This document shows positions 271 to 59,001 of a stretch of DNA of 64,000 nt, in pieces. The DNA comes from Deltaproteobacteria bacterium (lineage in GTDB: Bacteria > Desulfobacterota > Binatia > HRBIN30 > JACQVA1). The translations under genes and the position numbers were made by a program. The notes under the pieces are model-generated. The model was not told where the DNA came from, did no database searches, and saw nothing but the letters and a program-made list of their open reading frames with translations. Each line of letters opens with the position of its first letter. Position 1 is the stretch's first letter. The stretch covers positions 62,001 through 126,000 of the forward strand of contig JACOST010000014.1 in the NCBI GenBank assembly GCA_016178705.1. The letters run 5' to 3'.

Positions 271-3200
271 ATGGCAGCACCGATCGACCGCACTTCCCTG
301 CTCCGTGCCGCGCTGGCCGAGCGCATCCTCGTGCTCGATGGCGCCACAGGTACCGCCATCCAGGCGATGGACCTCACCGCCGACGACTTTGGCGGGCCGG
401 CGCTTGAAGGCTGCAACGAGAATCTCGTACTGACGCGCCCCGATGCCATTCGGCGCATGCATCAGAGCTACATCGACGCCGGCGCCGACTTGATCGAGAC
501 CGATACGTTTGGGGGGACGCGCATCGTCCTCGCCGAGTACGGGTTGCATGACAAGGCCTACGAGATCAACTACGCGGCCACGCGCATCGCGCGGGAAGTT
601 GCGGACGCGGCGTCGACGGCCGATCGGCCGCGCTTCGTGGTCGGCTCGATGGGGCCCGGCACGAAGACCATCTCGGTGACCGGCGGCATCAACTTCGAAG
701 GCGTCCGCGCGGCCTACGCGGAGCAAGCTGCGGGTTTGCTCGATGGCGGCGCCGACGTGCTGTTCCTCGAAACCCAGCAGGATACCCTCAACGTCAAGGC
801 GTCGCTGCTCGGCATCGACGAGGTCTTCGCCAAAGCCGGCCGCACGCTGCCCGTCGTGCTCACGGTCTCGATCGAAACCATGGGCACGATGCTGGCGGGT
901 CAACCGATCGAGTCGCTCTATGTCTCGGTTGAGCATCGCGACCTGTTCGGCATCGGCATGAACTGCGCCACCGGGCCTGACTTCATGACCGATCATCTGC
1001 GCACGCTGGCGGAGATCTCGCGCTTTCCGATCGTGTGCTTCCCCAACGCCGGCTTGCCCGACGAGGATGGAAACTACAACGAGCTGCCGCCGATGCTGGC
1101 GAAGAAGATCGAACGCTTCTGCGCCGAGGGCTGGATCAACGTCATCGGCGGCTGTTGCGGCACGACCGCCGAACACATCCGCATGATCGCACAGGTTGTC
1201 GCGAAGTATCCGCCACGCAAACCAGTCACGGTGAAGCGTTGTGTCGTGTCGGGCATCGACACCCTTGTCATCGATCAAGACACCCGCCCGGTGATCGTCG
1301 GCGAGCGCACCAACGTGCTCGGCAGCCGCAAGTTCAAGCAGCTCATCGCCGACGGCAAAGTCGAAGAGGCGTCGGAGGTCGGCCGCCAACAGGTGCGCAA
1401 AGGCGCGCACATCCTCGATGTGTGTTTGCAGGACCCTGACCGCGTTGAAGTCGCCGACGTGACCGCGTTTCTCGAAATGGAGGTGAAGAAGGTCAAGGTC
1501 CCGCTGATGATCGACTCCACCGACGCCAACGTGATCGAAGAGGCGCTCAAGCGGACGCAGGGCAAGTCGCTGATCAACTCGATCAACCTCGAAGACGGCG
1601 AAGAGCGCTTCCAGCGCGTCGTCCCGCTGGCGCGCACCTACGGCGCCGCGCTCGTGGTCGGCTGCATCGACGACGACAAACAGCAGGCACAAGCGATCAC
1701 GCGCGAGCGCAAACTGGCCATCGCGCAACGCTCGTATGATCTGCTCACCAAGAAATACGGCGTGCCCGCGGAAGACATCATCTTCGACGCGCTAGTCTTC
1801 CCGGTCGGCACCGGCGACAAGAACTACATCGGCTCGGGCGTCGAAACGATCGAAGGCATTCGCCTGATCACGCAACACCTGCCCGACACCAAGACTATCC
1901 TCGGGGTGTCGAACGTATCGTTCGGGCTGCCGACCGCCGGCCGCGAGGTGCTCAACTCGGTCTTCCTCTACCACTGCGTGCAGGCCGGGCTCGATCTGGC
2001 GATCGTCAACTCGGAGAAGCTCGAACGCTATCCGTCAATTCCAGAAGAAGAGCGGCGCCTCGCCGAGGATCTGATCTGGTGGCGCGGCGACGATCCGATC
2101 GCGGCCTTCAGCGCGCACTTTCGCACCAAGGCACCGAAGCAAACCGTCGAGCAGCGCCGCGATCTACCGCTCGACGAGCGCATCGCTCTCTACATCCTCG
2201 AAGGCTCGAAGGACGGGCTGTACGCTGACCTCGACGAAAAATTGAAAACGCATCGTCCGCTCGAAATCATCAACGGACCGCTGATGGCCGGCATGGACGA
2301 AGTCGGCCGACTGTTCGGCGCCAACGAGATGATCGTCGCCGAGGTGTTGCAGTCGGCCGAAGCGATGAAGGCGGCAGTGTCCCACCTCGAACCGCACATG
2401 CAGAAGAGCGAGACGTCGAGCAAGGGCAAGATCGTGCTCGCAACGGTGAAGGGCGACGTCCACGACATCGGCAAGAACCTGGTCGACATCATCCTCGGCA
2501 ACAACGGCTTCGAGATTGTCAACCTCGGTATCAAGGTGCCGCCGGAAGAACTCGTCCGGGCCTACAAAGAACATCGGCCCGACGCGATCGGTCTCTCAGG
2601 ACTGCTGGTGAAGTCGGCGCAGATGATGGTGATCACCGCGCAGGATCTGAAGGTCGCGGGCATCAGTTGCCCGATTCTGGTGGGCGGCGCCGCGCTGTCG
2701 AATCGCTTCACCCGATTGAAGATTGCACCGCAGTACGACGGACTCGTCGCCTACGCCAACGACGCGATGACGGGACTCGACCTGGCCAATCGGCTGATGG
2801 AACCGACGCGGCGCGAAGAACTCGTCGCCAAGCTGGCGCGGGATACGACCCAGATCGAAGTTGAGATTGGCAAGCGCGCCGAGGGCGTGGCGCCGGCGGT
2901 CGCGCCAAAGGCGAACGTGCGCCGCGATCACGACATCCCGACGCCCCCGGATCTCAAACTCCACGTCATTCACAACTACGACCTTGATGAAATCTTCCGC
3001 TTCATCAACCCGGTGATGCTCTACACCCGCCACCTCGGCTTCAAAGGCAAGATCGAAGACGCGCTCGCACGCGGCGACGCCAAGGCTCGCGAGCTGATCG
3101 AACAAGTCGACGCGGTCGAAGCGATCATGTTGCCGCGCCCCGACATCACTGCGAACGCGGTGTTCAAATTTTTCCGCGCCGCATCCGAGGATGAAACGCT

Positions 3201-8534: not shown

Positions 8535-9142
8535 GCGACCGGCATCGTAGTCGGAGCGGCGATCAGAGACAACGATGCGGAAAGGACGTGCTGGTAAGTG
8601 ATCCGAGATGCCGAGATGAATTGATCCAAAGCCGCCCGAGCATCTGTCGAACTCGCTGACCCGCTAAGAGAGAGATGCGGTGCTGCTGGGTGGCGGGTCG
8701 GTTTTGAGACGTGCAGAAAATTGTCATCCTGAGCCCTTCGACTTCGCTCAGGATAAACTCCGCGAAGGATCTCTCCGGACCCGCGCAACGCGAAGAGAGA
8801 TTCTTCGCCCGGCTCAGAATGACACGATGGGTTGATCTGGTTGTTTGCAAAATGCCCACTCCCTGCTGCTGGCCGCACTTGACGGCGTTTCGTGGATCAT
8901 GGCAATGGTCCTGTCGGGCTCAGGGCTCCACTTGAAAAGTGTGCGGCGATAGCAAGCGGCGCACGCTTCTTATGCAACCGAGGGCAGTACGCGAGATGCG
9001 CAACGGCAAGCAAGGGCGCCGCAAGAAGAACCGTCGCGGTGAGCGGCAACGGACCGCGGCAGCAAACCAAGCACCGGTTGCCTCGTTTCGGTAGTCGGTT
9101 CGGACGTCGAAATGTAGTTAGCGCAACTCGGAGCAGGGGTGC
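8535..9142. other. 608-base intergenic region without a supported gene
   Basis: Between the divergent acyl-CoA dehydrogenase and SLATT-like genes. It contains one repeat (8723-8823, listed separately) and an inverted pair around 9040-9090 (GGCAACGG against CCGGTTGCC). Frames open on either strand are short and lack ribosome sites or recognisable domains. The regulatory region for the SLATT-like gene must lie here, but no strong promoter hexamer pair was found. Confidence 0.6.
8723..8823. repeat. Palindromic intergenic repeat, family C
   Basis: The termini GTCATCCTGAGCC and GGCTCAGAATGAC are inverted, and a hairpin CCTGAGC / GCTCAGG with the loop CCTTCGACTTC lies inside. Read on the minus strand it gives a peptide beginning CHSEPGEESL, a translation product well known from intergenic repeats of many uncultured bacteria and not a real protein. 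Boundaries are clear. Confidence 0.85.
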
Positions 9143-9712
9143 ATGGGGATGGATCAGCCAACGAAGGAACCGGTGGGACCGATAGCAGCCGAGCGGCAAT
9201 CGCGAGACGAACTGTGGTTGGGTGCTTTCGAAACCTATTACACGGCGTATTTCGAGGAGCTGATGGCGGCGAGGCTGGTGACATGGTGGCAAAGGGTAGA
9301 TGACGTTACGAAAGTGTTGGTAGCCCTTACCGCCTCGGGTTCAGCGGTGGCGGGCTGGAGCCTGTGGAACCAGGAGTACTACAAGAACTTTTGGGTAGCA
9401 GCCGCGGGGATCGCGGCCGTGCTGTCCATTGTTCACGCTGCGCTTGGAGTTCCGGCAAAGCTCAAGGACCACACTGGCATTCAGCGGCGCTTTGCATCTT
9501 TGCGGACGGACTTGGAAACGTTCCGATACCGAATGCGGATCAGCCCTTCCTTTCCCGTCAAGGACTTCACAGAGATGTTTGCGACCTTCCGCAAGCGTCT
9601 GGGCGACGAAGTGCAGTTGCTGCAGACTGACCTGCTGTCAACTGATGGCCTTCAAGAGAGAGTGCAAGATCGGCTGAACGTGATTCTTCAGGCTGAACTC
9701 GAACAGCCCTAG
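9143..9712 (+). CDS. SLATT-like two-helix membrane protein
   Basis: A 189-residue protein. An N-terminal cytosolic helix (LWLGAFETYYTAYFEEL) is followed by two membrane spans at about 55-74 and 83-103 joined by a short turn, and then by a long charged helical tail. This layout, and a tail of the form KDHTGIQRRFASLRTDLETF, matches the SLATT family of two-helix proteins, predicted to form pores or act as effectors in nucleotide-signalling defence systems. No synthetase (SMODS/CD-NTase) or SLOG gene is adjacent. Codon use seems less GC-rich than the neighbours. A proline-rich micro-ORF and an attC-like hairpin follow directly, suggesting a gene cassette. The family call is inference from topology and pattern. 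Confidence 0.68.
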   Translation: MGMDQPTKEPVGPIAAERQSRDELWLGAFETYYTAYFEELMAARLVTWWQRVDDVTKVLVALTASGSAVAGWSLWNQEYYKNFWVAAAGIAAVLSIVHAALGVPAKLKDHTGIQRRFASLRTDLETFRYRMRISPSFPVKDFTEMFATFRKRLGDEVQLLQTDLLSTDGLQERVQDRLNVILQAELEQP

Positions 9713-11783: not shown

Positions 11784-12686
11784 ATGCCACGCGCCGAACT
11801 CACCGGGTTGTTCGACATGATGCGGTCGATGCCGCCGGCGCAATCGATCGTCGAGATGCGCGCCACGATGGAGGTGTCGGCTGACTTCATCAACGCGAAC
11901 CCGCCTTCCGTCGCGGGAGTCGAAGCGGGCGTCGAGATCGGTGGCGCCGTACGCGCCGACATCATCGTGCCACCGGGTACGCCACCGTTCCCCGTGGTGA
12001 TCTACTTGCACGGCGGCGGCTGGTCGATCGGCAGCCCGGCGACGCACCGCAAGCTGGCGCGGCAGTTGTGCGCAGGCGCCGGCGTCGTGGTGGTCAACGT
12101 CGACTACCGCCTCGCGCCGGAGCATCCGTTCCCGACGCCGCTCGACGACTGCGTCGCTGCGGCGCGGTGGACGCGAGCAAACGTCAAGACCTTCGGCGGC
12201 GATCCCGCTCTCCTCGCCATCGGCGGCGATTCAGCGGGTGGCAATCTGTCCGCCGCGGTCATCAACGATCTCCGCGACGACATCCAATTTCGCGCGGCAT
12301 TATTGATCTATGGCGCGTTCGATCTGTTGGCGTCGCGGCGCGACTACGACAAGTGGGCACCGGAGGAAGACCCGGTCCTTCCCAAGCGCTCGATGGACAT
12401 GATGCTCGCCGCGTATCTCACCGGTGGCGCGTCGACCGACGATGCGCGCGTCAGCCCGATCCACGCCGACCTGCGTCACTTTCCTCCCGCGTGTCTGTTG
12501 TGCGGCACGTGGGACCCGTTGCTCGGCGATTCGCGCGCATTGCACGCCAAGTTGAAAGGACTCGGCCGCGAGTCAGTGCTGCACGAGTACGAGGCCATGC
12601 CGCACGCATTCGTGCAGTTGCCGTGCACGGAAGCCGACGCCGCGCTCGCAACCGGATGTGAGTTCTTGCGTATGAAACTCCGCTGA
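11784..12686 (+). CDS. Alpha/beta hydrolase, hormone-sensitive-lipase family esterase
   Basis: A 300-residue esterase or lipase of the HSL family. The oxyanion-hole motif HGGGWSIG lies near residue 76. The nucleophile is S150 in GGDSAGG, the acid is D244 in WDP and the general base is H274 in MPHAF. These are all the catalytic residues, at normal spacing. No signal peptide, so intracellular. The ATG at 11784 is used. It precedes an F420-type monooxygenase gene, so the pair may act on hydrophobic esters, but substrate is not readable. Confidence 0.93.
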   Translation: MPRAELTGLFDMMRSMPPAQSIVEMRATMEVSADFINANPPSVAGVEAGVEIGGAVRADIIVPPGTPPFPVVIYLHGGGWSIGSPATHRKLARQLCAGAGVVVVNVDYRLAPEHPFPTPLDDCVAAARWTRANVKTFGGDPALLAIGGDSAGGNLSAAVINDLRDDIQFRAALLIYGAFDLLASRRDYDKWAPEEDPVLPKRSMDMMLAAYLTGGASTDDARVSPIHADLRHFPPACLLCGTWDPLLGDSRALHAKLKGLGRESVLHEYEAMPHAFVQLPCTEADAALATGCEFLRMKLR

Positions 12687-12722
12687 TCAGCCATACGCCA
12701 TCAGCCACCAGCCATCAGCCAA
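12687..12722. repeat. Short intergenic repeat, family F
   Basis: Overlapping copies of a CCATCAGCCA unit follow the esterase stop. The 18-mer GCCATACGCCATCAGCCA at 12690-12707 recurs exactly at 53433-53450, next to the start of another luciferase-like gene. Confidence 0.8.
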
Positions 12723-12743
12723 CCGACCGAAGGGAGATCAGAC

Positions 12744-14642: not shown

Positions 14643-14784
14643 ACCACCGAGGCACCGAGATCACAGAGGTCGGACACTGAGAAACCAAGTGATACCGCAG
14701 TTCAACGGAAACGACCGGTCGGTATCCGCCACTCGGAAAAGTTCTCTCGGTGTGCCATCTCGGTGCCCTCTGTGCCTCGGTGGT
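14643..14784. repeat. Long-armed inverted repeat, family D
   Basis: The left arm at 14643-14669 starts ACCACCGAGGCA. The right arm at 14767-14784 ends TGCCTCGGTGGT, giving 12 perfect pairs, and CAGAGG/CCTCTG pair after a nine-base bulge. The centre is about 100 bases. A related CGTCTCGGCGGTGAA string occurs near 56840. Elements of this wording are common between genes in environmental genomes. It lies between the aldo/keto reductase and the next hydrolase and could separate their transcripts. Confidence 0.75.
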
Positions 14785-27026: not shown

Positions 27027-27121
27027 GATTGCGGAATGCGGATTTTCGATTGCGGATTGAAGTATCAGACTCTTCTTCTCCGAATCCGCATTCCGCAATC
27101 CCCAATCCGCATTCCGCAATT
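27027..27121. repeat. Inverted repeat, family E (GATTGCGGAATGCGGATT)
   Basis: A perfect 18-base inverted pair lies at 27027-27044 and 27083-27100, and a further near-identical copy of the right arm at 27104-27121. It sits between the convergent cysH and the small metF-linked gene. Related sequence occurs at 58925-59001, and inside coding sequence at 38404-38457. Confidence 0.9.
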
Positions 27122-38016: not shown

Positions 38017-38085
38017 GATGAATCCAGTGATTAGAGCAATTGACCCAGCGGCTTTTACGCAATCCGCGCACAGGGTGTCAAGGTG

Positions 38086-38160
38086 GCGAGACGTGAGGTG
38101 TGAAGCGTGAGGCGTGAGTCGGGCTCGGGTTCGTGAGTCGTGTTCGTGACTCGTGTTCGT
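38086..38160. repeat. Degenerate short-unit repeat, family G
   Basis: Runs of GTGAGGTGTGAAGCGTGAG and TTCGTGAGTCGTGTTCGTGA units between the TetR and cyclase genes. The GTGAGTCGTGAGTC-type unit also occurs at 21010-21042. No coding frame. Confidence 0.7.
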
Positions 38161-41100
38161 CAGGAGAATTGATCGAGCAACGTCTTCGCCTCAATGAGGT
38201 CGCGCGTGTCGAAGCCTTCGGTGAACCAGGCGTAGATTGGCGCGAGGAGGTCGCGCGCTTCGGCGCGCTTGCCCCGGTTGCGCCAGAGCCGCGCAAGGCT
38301 GGTGGCGGCGCGCAGCTCGAGGGACTTCGCCTCCTGCCTGCGCGCGAGGTCGAGGGCGCGGTGGAAGCATGCTTCCGCTTCCGATCGCGGATCGCGAATT
38401 TCTGATTGCGGATTGGCGGAGGGGGAATCCGCACTCCGCAATCGCCAATCCGCAATCAAAATCTCCCCCTGGAGCCGATACAGCTCCGCCTCGTACCAGC
38501 GCTCGGAGTTCTTTTCCGCGAGCGCCAAGGCGCCCGTGAGCAGGGGAAGCACTTGGGCCGTTTGTCCGGCAGAGGTGTGAATCTCCGACGCCAGCGCCAG
38601 CACCCAGGTTGTGCCCAACTCCTGTCCTGCACTGGCCAGCGTCGACGTGGACTGCTCCAGCAAGGGCAGGGCGCCAACCGTGTCTGCGCGTGCGGCCAAT
38701 GACCACGCGCGCAGCACCAGCCCGACGCCGAGCCACACGGGGAAGCCCTGCTCGGTCGACAGGGCGACCGCGTCCCCGGCCCACGTTCCGGCGAGCTCGT
38801 GATCGCGGCGGAACTGATGAATTCCGGCGGCGATAGCGGTTGCCCACGCCAAACTGAACTGATGAGCACTACGGCGCGCCGACGCAACGGCGTCGTTGAT
38901 CTGGGCAACCGCCTGATCCGGATAGCCGACAAACCAGAGAGCCATTGCGAGATAACACCGGGCCGTCGTCTCCGGGTCCGATCCGTAGGTGAGCGCGGAG
39001 GGCGAGTGACGGTCGAAGTCGTACAAGGAAATGGCGTGCTCACAGCGACTCCGCGCTGTCGTGAACTCACCCATCCAGAGCGCCGTGCCACCTTCGGCCC
39101 ACGCCGCCTGCAACTGCAAGTCGCGGTCGTGCACCGCATCTGCCAGCTGCGAGAGCGAGCCAGCCATTTGCTTGGCCGTGCGCAGATCGCCGCGCACCAG
39201 GTAGAAGCGCCACAGACCATGGAGCACCGGGAAGATGTGCGGCGTCTCGCCGAGACTCTCACAGAGTTCGCGCGCCCGCGCATAGGTCGCCCCCGCCTCC
39301 GGCGAGCTGATCCCCTTCACGGCCTGCTGCGGTACGCCCAATGCGAGCTGCAACTCCAGCTCGCGTTGCGCGCGCCCGGGACTCTCGGGCATCTCGAGCG
39401 TGATCTGCAGCGCGCGTTGGAAGTGGTTGATCGCCTCGAGATTGGCGGAGCGCAGCGTCGCCCGCTCGCCGGCCCGCCGCCAATACTCGATGGCGGAGGC
39501 GGCGATGCCGGCTTCGCCATAGTGGTAGGCGAGCAGCTCCGGCTGCGCCGCGACGGTCTCCGGAAAGCGCTCCTCCAATGCCTTCGCCACTCCGCGGTGG
39601 TACTGCAGCCGCTTGGTGCGCAGCAACGAGTAGTATGCCGCCTCCTGGATGAGGGTGTTCTTGAACGTGTAGGTGGCGTGCGGTGGGCTTCCACGCTGAT
39701 AGAGGAGCTCCGCGTGCACCAGTTCCGTCAGCGCCTGGTCCAGGGATTCCTGACCGAGGGGTGACAGGGCAGCCAGCAGCTCGTAGGTGAACTCGCGGCC
39801 GAGGGTCGCGCCCAGTTGCGCCACTTCCTTGCTCGGGCCCAGCCGATCGAGCCGCGCCATGAGCGAGTCTTGCAAGGTGGACGGAATGGCCAACGCCGGC
39901 AACGAGCCGCGCAGCTCGAAGCGCTCGCCGCGATCCTCGAGTTGACCCGACTCCAGCACCATCTTGGTCAGCTCCTCGACAAAGAGCGGCACGCCGTCGG
40001 TCTTGGCGACCAGTTGCTCGGTCACCGCCTTCGGCAACGGCTTGCCCGCCACGCTGGTCGCCATGCTGATGGACTGTGTGCGTGTGAGGCGGGGCACGGT
40101 GAGCTGCGAGAGATGCGAGCGCGGCGCCCATGGCGGGTGAAAGTTCGGGCGGAAGGTGAACACCAGCAGCGCCGCCACCGTTGGCACCTGCTCGACCAGC
40201 ATGCTCAGCAATTCGACCGTCGAGGGATCGACCCAATGCAGGTCTTCGACGACGAGGACAATCGGCTGCGCCGTGCTCAGCGCGAAGAACCACGTGACCA
40301 GCGCCTCCAGTGTCTTGCGCCGCAGTGCCTCTGGGCTCAGTACCAGCGGCGGCACGCTTTCCGGCAGCGGTAACGAGAGCAGTGAGGTAAACAGCGGCAG
40401 CGCCTCGGGTACAGAGAAGCCGCCGTAGTGGAGACCCGCTTCCAGCCGAGCGATCTTGTCCGCCACGGAATGCTCGGGCGCGAAGAGCAATCCCTGCTCC
40501 AGCAACTCGACGACAGGGTAGAGGGCAGAGTTCTCATGATACGGCGAACAGCGACATTCGAGCCAGCTGTGTGCATGCTCGGCGAGCCGCTCGCGCAACA
40601 CCTGCAGCAGCCGCGACTTGCCCATGCCGGCATCGCCGGAAATGAGCGCGACCTGTCCGCGACCGTCCTGGACGTGCTCCCACAAATCGAGCAGCAATCC
40701 GACCTGCTGCTGCCGGCCCACCAAAGGGGTCAGCGTGCCGGCGTTGGCCAGGTCGAGACGACTGCGCATGCCACTGGTGCGTACCGCGCGGAAGAGCTGC
40801 ATGGGCTCGGACACGCCCTTCAGCTCGTGGCGTCCCAGGTCTTCGAGCACGAAGACCCCGGTCACCAGGCGGCGCGTCGCGTCGCTGATGACCACGGTGT
40901 TCGGTGCCGCGACGCCCTGCAGTCGCGCGGCCAGGTTCGGCGTATCACCGACGATCGCGCCCTCCTCACGGGACGAGCCAGCACCGAAATCGCTCACCAC
41001 CACCAGACCGGTATGCACCCCCACGCGGACGGCGAGTGGACGATCGCGCATCTGTGGCACGCGCTCTTGCGCGCGCGCGTTCAGGAGCGGGAGGTCCACC

Positions 41101-41576
41101 AGCATACCCAACGCGGCAGTGATCGCCCGCACCGGGTCGTCCTCGTGCGCCTGTGGATAGCCGAAGTAGACGAGCACGCCGTCGCCGAGATATTTGGCGA
41201 TGTGCCCGTCAAGCCGTCTGACTACCTCGTCGACCATCTCATAGTAGGCGCGAACGACCTCACCCATTTCTTCGGGATCGAGGCGCGCGCTCAGCTCCGT
41301 CGAGCCGACCAAATCGCAGAACAGCACAGTGAGCTGGCGGCGCTCGCCAGAAGGCAGGTTGCTCGTTGTTAGGTTGTTGGTTGTCAGGTTGGGATCGGAA
41401 CTGCCTACTGCCGTCTGCCCACTGCCTACGACTTGGGCGCCACAGCCCGAACAGAATCTCGCCTGCGGGTTCAACTCGCGACCGCAGCTCGGGCACATCG
41501 CGGTCAGCGCCCCGCCGCAGGCTTCGCAGAACCGCGCATCGGCGGCATGTTCCGCCTGGCATTGGGGGCACTGCAT
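38160..41576 (-). CDS. Zinc-ribbon / class III nucleotide cyclase / AAA ATPase / TPR regulator
   Basis: A 1138-residue multidomain protein. Residues 1-45 carry two CxxC zinc ribbons (MQCPQCQAEHAADARFCEAC). A class III adenylate/guanylate cyclase domain at about 75-260 includes LTVLFCDLVGSTELSARLDP. An AAA ATPase follows at about 285-650, with P-loop SGDAGMGKSRLLQ and VLVVEDLHWVDPS. The rest is TPR-like helical repeats. Such proteins are thought to be signal sensors producing cyclic nucleotides. Two segments are repeat-derived: the ribbon-to-cyclase linker (residues about 50-70) and an insert at about 1040-1064 between TPR helices. It is full length otherwise, and the frame stays open through both inserts. 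Confidence 0.93.
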   Translation of the reverse strand: MQCPQCQAEHAADARFCEACGGALTAMCPSCGRELNPQARFCSGCGAQVVGSGQTAVGSSDPNLTTNNLTTSNLPSGERRQLTVLFCDLVGSTELSARLDPEEMGEVVRAYYEMVDEVVRRLDGHIAKYLGDGVLVYFGYPQAHEDDPVRAITAALGMLVDLPLLNARAQERVPQMRDRPLAVRVGVHTGLVVVSDFGAGSSREEGAIVGDTPNLAARLQGVAAPNTVVISDATRRLVTGVFVLEDLGRHELKGVSEPMQLFRAVRTSGMRSRLDLANAGTLTPLVGRQQQVGLLLDLWEHVQDGRGQVALISGDAGMGKSRLLQVLRERLAEHAHSWLECRCSPYHENSALYPVVELLEQGLLFAPEHSVADKIARLEAGLHYGGFSVPEALPLFTSLLSLPLPESVPPLVLSPEALRRKTLEALVTWFFALSTAQPIVLVVEDLHWVDPSTVELLSMLVEQVPTVAALLVFTFRPNFHPPWAPRSHLSQLTVPRLTRTQSISMATSVAGKPLPKAVTEQLVAKTDGVPLFVEELTKMVLESGQLEDRGERFELRGSLPALAIPSTLQDSLMARLDRLGPSKEVAQLGATLGREFTYELLAALSPLGQESLDQALTELVHAELLYQRGSPPHATYTFKNTLIQEAAYYSLLRTKRLQYHRGVAKALEERFPETVAAQPELLAYHYGEAGIAASAIEYWRRAGERATLRSANLEAINHFQRALQITLEMPESPGRAQRELELQLALGVPQQAVKGISSPEAGATYARARELCESLGETPHIFPVLHGLWRFYLVRGDLRTAKQMAGSLSQLADAVHDRDLQLQAAWAEGGTALWMGEFTTARSRCEHAISLYDFDRHSPSALTYGSDPETTARCYLAMALWFVGYPDQAVAQINDAVASARRSAHQFSLAWATAIAAGIHQFRRDHELAGTWAGDAVALSTEQGFPVWLGVGLVLRAWSLAARADTVGALPLLEQSTSTLASAGQELGTTWVLALASEIHTSAGQTAQVLPLLTGALALAEKNSERWYEAELYRLQGEILIADWRLRSADSPSANPQSEIRDPRSEAEACFHRALDLARRQEAKSLELRAATSLARLWRNRGKRAEARDLLAPIYAWFTEGFDTRDLIEAKTLLDQFS
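38404..38457. repeat. Family E palindrome inside the cyclase/ATPase coding sequence
   Basis: A perfect 15-base inverted pair (GATTGCGGATTGGCG at 38404-38418, complement at 38443-38457), the same word type as the intergenic repeats at 27027-27121 and 58925-59001. In the gene it encodes the low-complexity stretch LRSADSPSANPQSEIRDPR. It adds roughly 18-25 residues between GEIL and AEACFHRAL without breaking the frame. Confidence 0.85.
41366..41429. repeat. Repeat-derived linker in the cyclase/ATPase coding sequence
   Basis: Two blocks of short direct repeats inside the coding region: TTGTTAGGTTGTTGGTTGTC at 41366-41385, and CTGCCTACTGCCGTCTGCCC at 41401-41420 with a further CTGCCTAC unit. They encode the linker GQTAVGSSDPNLTTNNLTTS between the zinc ribbons and the cyclase domain. 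The wording looks like intergenic repeat families, not like conserved protein. Confidence 0.7.
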
Positions 41577-52300: not shown

Positions 52301-53398
52301 TTACGTCGCGCCCGAGCGTGTTCCCGTGCGCAACTGCGGGAGGATGTAGCGCCCCACGTAGTCGCATTCGGACGCGTGCGGATAGCCGGAGAGAATGAAC
52401 CCGCTAATTCCCAAGTCGATGTAGACCCGCAGCTTCCGCAACACTTGGTCGGGATCGCCCACCAACGCGGCGCCGCAGCCGCTGCGGGCGCGGCCGATGC
52501 CGGTCCAGAGGTGATCTTCAACGAAGCCCTCGTTGTCTGCCTGCTCGCGCATCATCGCCTGCGTGCGCACCCCCACCGACGCGTGATCGAGCGAGCGCCG
52601 GCGAATCTCCTCGCCGATACGATCGTCCAGGCGGCTGACCAGCCGGCGCGCATAGGCGCGTGCCTCGGCTTCGGTCTCGCGCACAATCATGTGGACCCGA
52701 TAGCCAAACTGCACGCTGCGGCCAACCCGCGCGGCGCGCGCCCGCATATCGTCGAGCAGCGTACGGAGTTGGGACAGTGGTTCCGGCCACATCAGAAAGA
52801 CGTCCGCCTCTTCCGCCGCCACCGCCCGCGCATCGTCTGAGAGTCCGCCAAAATAGAACAGCGGCGATCGCCCCGACACGGTGCGTACCGCTGGTGGGTC
52901 GATCTCGAGTTGATAGAACTCCCCGCGGTGACACACCGGCTCGCCATTTAACAACGCGCGCAAAATCTGCATGCACTCGTGCGTGCGCTGATAGCGCGGC
53001 GCCGACGGCAACGGTGCGCCGGGCAGATCGCTCGAAATGATGTTGATCGTCAACCGCCCGTCGAGCAGGCGGTCGAGCGTCGCCAGTTGCCGCGCCAGTT
53101 GCGGCGGAAACATTTTCCCGCATCGCACTGCCACCAGCAGGCGAATCCGCGAGGTCAGCGGCGCGACCGCGCTGGCGAACGCGACGCTGTCGATGCCCAA
53201 TGCATAGCCGGACGGACATAGAATGTTGTCGAAGCCATTCGCTTCGGCCCGCAACAGAATGTCGCGGCAATGTGGGAACGAGCTGCGCAACGCCGCATCG
53301 GGTACACCGAGATATTCGTAGTCGTCGTCGCAGAGCGGACAGAACCAAGCGATTTCGACTGGCTGATGGCTGATCGCCAATGGCTGATTGTTGTTCAT
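52301..53398 (-). CDS. LLM-class monooxygenase (SsuD-like)
   Basis: A 365-residue luciferase-like protein resembling alkanesulfonate monooxygenase. It shows IAWFCPLCDDDYEYLGVPDA, LLDGRLTINIISSDLPG and PLFYFGGLSDDARAVAAEEA. The only plausible start, ATG at 53398, and the first 13 residues (MNNNQPLAISHQP) are encoded by a family F repeat; homologous sequence starts at VEIAW. The real domain is otherwise complete. FMN or F420 dependence cannot be settled. Divergent from the Gfo/Idh/MocA gene. Confidence 0.88.
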   Translation of the reverse strand: MNNNQPLAISHQPVEIAWFCPLCDDDYEYLGVPDAALRSSFPHCRDILLRAEANGFDNILCPSGYALGIDSVAFASAVAPLTSRIRLLVAVRCGKMFPPQLARQLATLDRLLDGRLTINIISSDLPGAPLPSAPRYQRTHECMQILRALLNGEPVCHRGEFYQLEIDPPAVRTVSGRSPLFYFGGLSDDARAVAAEEADVFLMWPEPLSQLRTLLDDMRARAARVGRSVQFGYRVHMIVRETEAEARAYARRLVSRLDDRIGEEIRRRSLDHASVGVRTQAMMREQADNEGFVEDHLWTGIGRARSGCGAALVGDPDQVLRKLRVYIDLGISGFILSGYPHASECDYVGRYILPQLRTGTRSGAT

Positions 53399-53452
53399 GA
53401 GCAGACCGAACATCGCGACCGTCCAACCATATGCCATACGCCATCAGCCATA
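53361..53452. repeat. Family F inverted repeat at the start of the SsuD-like gene
   Basis: GGCTGATGGCTGAT at 53361-53374 is inverse to CCATCAGCCA in 53428-53452. The 18-mer at 53433-53450 is identical to 12690-12707. The left arm lies inside the coding sequence. Confidence 0.85.
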
Positions 53453-53504
53453 TGCGAGACCACCTGTGCTGCCGTCGAATCGTTCTGGTAGGATGCGAGC
53501 CGTG

Positions 53505-58924: not shown

Positions 58925-59001
58925 TCTCCATTCCGCAATCCGCATTCCGCAACATTCCGCATTCCCCCAGTCGGCAATCTACAATCCGAAATCCGCAATC
59001 A
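58925..59001. repeat. Family E repeats upstream of rpiA
   Basis: Several ATTCCGCAATCCGCATTCCG words lie between the CoA transferase and rpiA genes, matching 27027-27121 and the coding copy at 38404-38457. Confidence 0.85.

Follow-up and report, generated by a model that had tools for sequence, protein, structure and literature searches.

In the window, i.e. the whole 64,000-nucleotide stretch of DNA analyzed here, a repeat word found between genes recurs within a large coding sequence, which raises the question of what kind of element it is and how it became part of a protein. The initial annotation had placed the word at 27 kb, at 59 kb and in the gene at 38160-41576, and this was confirmed by word search: the exact 11-mer GATTGCGGATT lies at 27048 (+), 58990 (-), 38404-38414 (+) and 38447-38457 (-). 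Allowing at most one mismatch, 16 matches were found in the window, compared with 1.33 expected and a maximum of 5 in 100 shuffles. The features concerned are the following (coordinates in the window, strand where assigned, basis in brackets):

38160-41576, - strand: host gene, 1138 aa, with double zinc ribbon, cyclase, AAA_16 ATPase and TPR helices (ORF, Pfam, AlphaFold2 model)
about 38383-38462: two-arm GATTGCG heptamer element in the TPR region, corresponding approximately to residues 1039-1065 counted from the ATG (period-7 arrays 38380-38418 and 38422-38462, Tandem Repeats Finder, loop comparison)
38404-38418, + strand: left arm of a perfect 15-nt inverted pair (sequence reading, word search)
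38443-38457, - strand: right arm of the same pair (sequence reading, word search)
41357-41391: GTTGTTAG-like array, the second within the gene and the left one of a linker pair, residues about 48-74 (Tandem Repeats Finder; AlphaFold2 pLDDT below 50 at 49-75)
41395-41435: ACTGCCT array, the third within the gene and the right one of the zinc-ribbon/cyclase linker pair (Tandem Repeats Finder, lag-7 scan)
38082-38160: array from a further heptamer-like family, with GTGAGGC / TCACGAA type units, reaching from outside up to the host stop codon (Tandem Repeats Finder, lag-7 scan)
27027-27120: two-arm GATTGCG element that fills the gap between predicted convergent genes (word clusters)
58929-59000, - strand: GATTGCG array of single orientation, C-rich twice (word clusters, polarity scan)
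53356-53460: two-arm element from a different heptamer family, with GATGGCT / AGCCATA units (lag-7 scan, arm comparison)
12684-12732, - strand: single GATGGCT-family array between two predicted genes on the + strand (Tandem Repeats Finder, lag-7 scan)

The element within the host gene

The element had been described as a perfect 15-base inverted pair. The pair is indeed perfect, but it is part of longer heptamer arrays covering about 38383-38462, and Tandem Repeats Finder reports period 7 on both sides of the centre. The "palindrome" is thus two convergent arrays of the degenerate heptamer GATTGCG and no fixed palindrome. The DNA at 38390-38475 folds at -25.9 kcal/mol (z = -4.5), a value that was reached by none of 200 shuffles. 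Nor is the element the only array in the gene: two more heptamer arrays lie in the linker between zinc ribbon and cyclase (41357-41391 and 41395-41435), and another one reaches the stop codon from outside (38082-38160). The linker pair also runs from G-rich to C-rich, with different heptamers as arms. Repeats of GATTGCG translate as DCGLRIA on one strand and as RNPQSAI on the other and are, according to the genetic code, free of stop codons in every frame. Because the seven-base unit reads as one and the same cyclic seven-residue peptide in all three frames, it does not matter in which of them a stop-free strand of this kind enters a tolerant loop.

The reading frame of the host gene is intact and open over 1138 codons, in agreement with the earlier statement that the frame is kept. 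In the encoded protein, the Pfam families DZR, Guanylate_cyc and AAA_16 scored above the cut-off and TPR_12 below it, and the AlphaFold2 model has a mean pLDDT of 84.6. The extra segment of the TPR region comprises residues 1041-1066 counted from the ATG (1049-1074 in the stop-to-stop frame). In the model it spans the end of a helix (1028-1049), a stretch with a pLDDT below 50 (1052-1058) and the start of the next helix (1062-1079), so that the position proposed earlier, between a pair of TPR helices, is broadly correct; the segment's first nine residues are modeled as a prolongation of the preceding helix. Stretches with a pLDDT below 50 lie within both in-gene array sites (residues 49-75 and 1052-1058), three other short ones were found at 195-206, 270-273 and 345-348, and the model is confident elsewhere.

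Heptamer arrays in the window genome

In the 6.1 Mb genome from which the window is taken (G000), GATTGCGGATT occurs in 44 exact copies, compared with none for the reversed control word, and a search of 58 genomes, among them that of the window, found it in 49. The 44 copies form 23 clusters. Exact words on both strands are present in seven GATTGCG clusters and an eighth is completed by one-mismatch units; GATTGCG precedes CGCAATC in all eight, and many other clusters are single-armed. GATTGCG itself rarely enters genes: according to the gene prediction used, an in-gene array is present in one of the 23 clusters only, namely the window copy, and three further clusters (L100, L116 and L117) each consist of a lone word inside a predicted gene.

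An unselected sample of 464 kb from the same genome (C14:62001-326000, which holds the window, and C28:100001-300000) was scanned for tandem arrays of any family. At period 7, 39 arrays were detected, compared with three in one block shuffle, whereas periods 4, 5, 8, 10, 11 and 13 gave between one and nine arrays and period 14 gave 21. When a stricter threshold was applied, arrays of periods 6, 9, 12 and 15 were detected as well, nearly all of them within genes. Period 7 therefore dominates the non-coding tandem arrays in these 464 kb. Of the 39 arrays, 29 were called intergenic, but the better figure is 27, as genes were delimited with a simple predictor based on codon usage, which sets some starts too late, and two of the arrays (41395 and B129658) belong to genes of the host family. 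Several heptamer families coexist in the genome, among them GATTGCG/GAATGCG, GTAGGCA, GTGAGTC, GATGGCT, GGGGTTA and AAAAGTC.

The units consist of a fixed core and two to three variable positions. In 192 GATTGCG units, the number of substitutions from the first to the seventh position is 17, 9, 66, 13, 31, 66 and 39 (chi2 99.8, 6 df), and the variability is uneven in all four families analyzed (GATTGCG, GTAGGCA, GTGAGTC and GATGGCT; chi2 27-100, 6 df). This bears on one alternative, according to which the arrays are ordinary long simple-sequence repeats that arose by local slippage from a chance duplication of seven bases and then drifted, without anything moving. The available parts of the published accounts propose slippage for heptameric repeats, which many bacteria contain in excess (PMC4692102, PMC4679880); long, near-perfect arrays, as expected from slippage, do exist (G031 312686). 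A restriction of variability to certain unit positions is, however, not predicted by slippage, since uniform mutation of slipped copies would not yield it.

A general advantage of arrays in being free of stop codons was considered and rejected. Of the reading frames of the 29 arrays called intergenic, 63% are open, compared with 57% for shuffled copies and 68% for random spacers; arrays as a class are thus not unusually translatable, and the stop-free property is claimed for GATTGCG only.

Arm polarity and spacer context

The order of the arms was analyzed for 34 adjacent array pairs from three genomes. In 22 of them a G-rich array is followed by a C-rich one, a single pair is reversed (G068 297170), and 11 have the same sign or zero; in array-free spacers of 60-400 nt, the G-then-C order was found in 170 of 382. 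The hand-picked two-arm GATTGCG elements are convergent throughout (11/11), with one off-polarity unit among them. Within genes, the order determined by half-split skew could not be told apart from that of ordinary loops of these genes (28 of 38 array loops, 101 of 133 array-free loops), so that the polarity rests on the pairs between genes.

In 14 of the 22 G-then-C pairs both arms share a heptamer with at most one mismatch after rotation, and in 20 with at most two, a mark that by arithmetic is reached by about 9% of random words. Neither the 22:1 excess of convergent pairs nor the word shared by both arms is predicted by slippage. Pairs with mixed arms were also found: 41357-41435 in the window gene and G068:192698 are clear cases and B129616 seems mixed when judged by eye, all of them in zinc-ribbon/cyclase linkers. 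The similarity between arms is only marginally higher within an element than across elements (permutation p 0.044). A strict palindrome is therefore not what is maintained, and selection for a strict hairpin was rejected as an explanation.

Among spacers of at least 50 nt, those bearing arrays have a median length of 88.5 nt (n = 22, two mispredicted sites being left out), compared with 197.5 nt for array-free ones (n = 182), and in 10 of the 22 no more than 12 nt are left free next to the gene on either side. Seventeen of the 22 clusters lie at most 12 nt from a predicted gene. As sliding the clusters within their spacers already gives 16.3, an attraction to gene ends was rejected, and only the shortness and the filling of the spacers are claimed. 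One array (L136) fills the gap between tRNA-Glu and tRNA-Gln, and several arrays overlap a stop codon and are located between convergent genes.

Such positions would suit a nucleic-acid structure selected at gene ends, i.e. bidirectional terminators, RNA hairpins or G-quadruplexes, with the in-gene copy as a bystander, and GGGNATC heptamers of Xanthomonas can form quadruplexes according to the available part of that account (PMC4692102). The GATTGCG unit, however, contains no run of three G, many clusters are one-armed, and no known RNA family was matched at the gathering score of Rfam in window positions 26000-60000. Since a selected structure also leaves the arrays in protein linkers unexplained, this reading is considered very improbable.

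Arrays in a family of multidomain proteins

Within the 464 kb sample, five of the six members of the host gene family together contain ten arrays, and two RHS/YD-type reading frames account for three more; another one (53359) overlaps a predicted gene that is itself doubtful. Pfam supports the family assignment for three other members and the RHS repeats for one of the two frames. In 400 kb of genome G068, arrays were found in all five long family members, one of them read in two frames, and at the edge of a sixth, short fragment. Arrays in predicted genes outside the named families are present at G068 237412, G068 250688 and G031 235229.

Homologues were collected across the class, which is probably Binatia, in a search of 148 genomes (the window's own included), 104 of which contain them, and 90 genes (30 loci and 60 more) of the longer list were read. 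For the loop count, five of the 90 were dropped for lack of a C-terminal tail. A period-7 array was found in 15 of the remaining 85 TPR loops and in 16 of 78 zinc-ribbon/cyclase linkers, three of which (L078, L088 and L091) are not clear arrays by eye, compared with 48 of 8500 control windows from the same genes. At periods 4, 5, 6, 8, 9, 10 and 11, between zero and four TPR loops were detected, and at period 14 there were 15. In the 28 loops of at least 18 residues, which include near-copies from one genus, the autocorrelation of the DNA at lag 7 is 0.439, compared with 0.268 after shuffling, and echoes appear at lags 14, 21 and 28.

The heptamers differ even between sister genes, e.g., AAGTTTC in L013 and AGTCCAA in L047. 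L012, L042 and L049 contain three different words, whereas their sister L045 has none. Mapped on a FastTree tree, the presence of arrays requires five changes, three of which are forced by well-supported branches. The in-gene arrays are thus concentrated in a single family of large multidomain proteins, where they occupy linkers and loops and consist of heptamers that differ by genome and sister gene.

A second set consisted of 80 loci from named best homologues; the loop could be evaluated in 77 of them and the linker in 54. The window loop has 26 aa, compared with a median of 10 aa in the 77 named homologues and about 10 residues in distant ones. Loops of at most 12 residues account for 61 of the 77 and for 45 of the 85 in the class set. 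Arrays are present in six of the 77 named loops, all from three MAGs (G065, G064 and G067) that are also in the class set, so that the named set adds no new array-bearing genome; distant homologues without arrays come from Bradyrhizobium, Mycobacterium, Microvirga and others. Seven of the 54 named linkers were scored as arrays, of which the Bradyrhizobium case (L246) is just at the threshold and probably due to chance. These alignments agree with the earlier view of a tolerant loop: the site varies in length, the segment is no conserved part of the protein, and it was not found as ordinary protein in distant homologues whose genomes lack the repeat.

Array-free sites in congeners of G031

The initial annotation had further concluded that the repeat is or was mobile. 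For the window copy itself, recent movement could not be substantiated, as its nearest homologue is only about 51% identical (in the tree, L010 with 52% over 945 columns) and carries another array in its loop. Spread was observed for a different family, GTGGTTA, in another genus, which belongs to a different family of the class, is represented by seven genomes including G031 and in which loci were picked for having arrays in G031. At C1:312686, where G031 has an array of 62-66 nt, the congeners have an unrelated spacer of 21-25 nt and the array is present in none of six. For the array at 3935627, the six congeners have seven orthologous copies of the site, all without it, and the array at 4100910 is missing from five of five alignable congeners, G058 having been left out because it does not align across the site. 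In total, five loci were tried and three counted: 112378 gave broken matches and was not aligned, and 295196, where each congener has its own spacer and none has arms, was kept out of the count. No target duplication was seen at the three array-free loci, where the spacers are too diverged for a reliable comparison.

Matches to GTGGTTA number 41 in G031 and 0, 1, 2, 6, 0 and 7 in the six congeners, five of which are many-contig drafts. Lineage-specific presence is thus shown for this heptamer family in this genus, not for the window copy. Local slippage predicts neither one word at many unlinked sites (44 exact copies in the window genome; 41 matches in G031 vs. 0-7 in congeners) nor a wholly different spacer in the congeners, and it is further disfavoured by the array-free sites. 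As the origin of the element it is therefore judged unlikely.

Possible machinery

REP and REPIN sequences associated with RAYT are short inverted pairs that are mostly extragenic. A palindrome of this or of a MITE-like kind, moved as a hairpin by RAYT or another transposase and including the Rickettsia type, would agree with the inverted arms of one family and their fixed polarity, with the hairpin fold of the window element, with the lineage burst in G031 and with the six Y1_Tnp matches in the window genome; Rickettsia palindromic elements (RPEs) are also described, in the available part of the source, as landing in frame in genes (PMC10969869). Several results speak against it. No conserved sequence was seen beyond the heptamer, the target duplication expected of a transposable element was not seen in the aligned, though diverged, array-free sites, and the arms in some linkers belong to different families. 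Y1_Tnp had no match in G031, a single 4.6 Mb contig with both arrays and array-free sites, and across 58 genomes its presence is unrelated to the GATTGCGGATT count (p 0.75). A RAYT/Y1 transposase was therefore rejected as a required engine, and a transposed palindrome is regarded as quite unlikely. The unit here, a tandem heptamer showing no dependence on a Y1 transposase over these 58 genomes, also differs from REP and REPIN sequences.

Another conceivable source is a scar of Ku-dependent end joining, in which broken ends are extended by heptamers and then joined. The convergent polarity, with G-rich 3′ strands toward the centre, the different spacers without target duplication and the mixed arms in linkers would fit such a scar. 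Ku, however, had no match in G031, G018 or G051, which have arrays or many words (G051 being 84% complete), and word counts are no higher where Ku is present (median 1 with Ku and 3 without; p 0.097). Ku end joining as a requirement was thus rejected, and the Ku-dependent scar, which is largely refuted, is scarcely credible.

Proposed origin of the segment

The favoured explanation, which we regard as probable, is that the segment is a heptamer dyad, one of the degenerate period-7 repeats that form a class found throughout the genome, that it replaced a short TPR turn and now forms a passive loop, and that copies of the class spread without RAYT or Ku. In an ancestor of the host gene, a two-arm element would have replaced, or been inserted into, a turn of about ten residues between two TPR helices. 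It may have been retained because both GATTGCG strands are stop-free in all frames, because its net length keeps the frame and because the loop tolerates differences in length; at the protein level it would act as a passive loop. The spread itself may proceed by copying of heptamer units into spacers, dependent on neither RAYT nor Ku. Copying of units onto the ends of a gap would account for the polarity, for the replacement of spacers and for the occasional mixed arms.

Beyond this locus, a widespread process that is free of both transposase and Ku and writes paired heptamer arrays of fixed polarity, their G-rich 3′ strands opposed as in fused telomeres and their words lineage-specific, into gene borders and protein linkers is suggested tentatively, as a possibility that is still doubtful. 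If true, it would be an unrecognized source of bacterial spacer DNA and of new protein linkers, with cyclase/AAA/TPR proteins as a recurrent coding target. Heptamer repeats have been noted in scattered bacteria, with the mechanism unsettled. It is open to testing, as the congeneric genomes offer both array-bearing and array-free sites, together with a polarity of the arms and a burst in one lineage. How a DNA-level repeat turns into protein is seen at the coding hot spots, which also call for caution in annotation, as such loops resemble protein features but are repeat DNA.

Comparison with known repeats

Among known repeats, the convergent GGGAATC heptamers of Xanthomonas come closest; for these, the available part of the account (PMC4692102) reports conservation of positions 1-4 and 6, 70 and 75 convergent pairs in two species, and a chromosome-wide distribution that is 89-93% intergenic, with the ORF on the 5′ side being the closer neighbour (mean distance 28 nt). 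The same source mentions a heptamer repeat GGGGA(C/T)T in Nostoc. The arrays of the window genome share with the Xanthomonas type, as described there, a tandem seven-base unit with a conserved core and variable positions, and convergent pairs that are dispersed and mostly intergenic. In Xanthomonas, however, one word was studied and a quadruplex role was proposed, whereas several words coexist in the window genome. The quadruplex potential, which GATTGCG lacks for want of a GGG run, is a trait of the Xanthomonas example and not of heptamers generally. The recurrence of arrays in two linkers of one protein family is found here, unlike in the available part of the Xanthomonas account. No report of heptamer arrays recurring in protein linkers was found among titles and abstract openings, with few subscription papers covered, which is weak evidence for novelty.

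The TAACTGA repeats of marine Beggiatoaceae are likewise dispersed heptamer arrays; in the available part of the source they are common to distant phyla, and carriage by mobile elements is considered (PMC4679880). According to this source they differ in being direct repeats (169 sets, with one indirect) that lie mainly upstream of start codons, with stops in the forward frame and related words being rare.

The initial annotation had likened the element to RPEs, and as a statement of how it works this is fair: in the available part of the description, that repeat family, too, also occurs in genes, in frame, as an extra protein segment (PMC10969869), and the window gene likewise carries an in-frame segment (26 aa where the median is 10) in its open frame of 1138 codons. 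The element is nevertheless not an RPE, as length, sequence and gene range do not agree. An RPE is an element of about 150 bp with a family sequence, whereas the heptamers here cover about 75 nt and nothing shared was seen beyond the unit. RPEs also occur in many unrelated genes, whereas the in-gene copies in the 464 kb sample are mostly confined to one protein family. The cyanobacterial STRR sequences are heptanucleotide tandem arrays as well, and their heptamer words probably differ from those found here.

Heptamer arrays within genes and beside tRNA genes

In addition to the GATTGCG two-arm element, the host gene (window 38160-41576, reverse strand), which encodes the cyclase/AAA_16/TPR protein, contains two more heptamer arrays with differing words:

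Window 41357-41435, GTTGTTAG-like and ACTGCCT arrays, in the linker between zinc ribbon and cyclase

Three in-frame arrays of the GGGGTTA and GTAGGCA types were found in RHS/YD-repeat reading frames of the same genome (L126:5107-8548 = G000 C14:271107-274548), where the Pfam check covered one of the two frames. For the cyclase/AAA/TPR family, genome G065 yielded 314 first-look candidates, the highest number among the genomes listed, and has perhaps undergone a large paralogue expansion.

At locus L136, the gap between tRNA-Glu (9093-9166) and tRNA-Gln (9265-9337) is filled by a GAATGCG two-arm array (9171-9269), and at locus L114 a tRNA-Ala is located 57 nt from a GATTGCG array (3021-3069).

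Sequences between the arms and a possible further family

In two heptamer families of G000, the centre of the two-arm elements was often read by eye as CGGAG. Examples are:

Window 38416-38421, in the host gene
L110, locus in G000
L111, locus in G000
B58578, two-arm element in G000

In genome G031, a stretch of about 110 nt lies between flanking heptamer arms (L173:15196-15397 = G031 C1:295196-295397). Its two parts of about 55 nt have matches at many other sites in G031 and its congeners, and the stretch may be a REP-like element.

Furthermore, a 40-nt inverted pair of CACCGAG-like units (80% complementary, spacing 62 nt) is located at window 14643-14784 and perhaps represents another family of the same kind as the heptamer elements.
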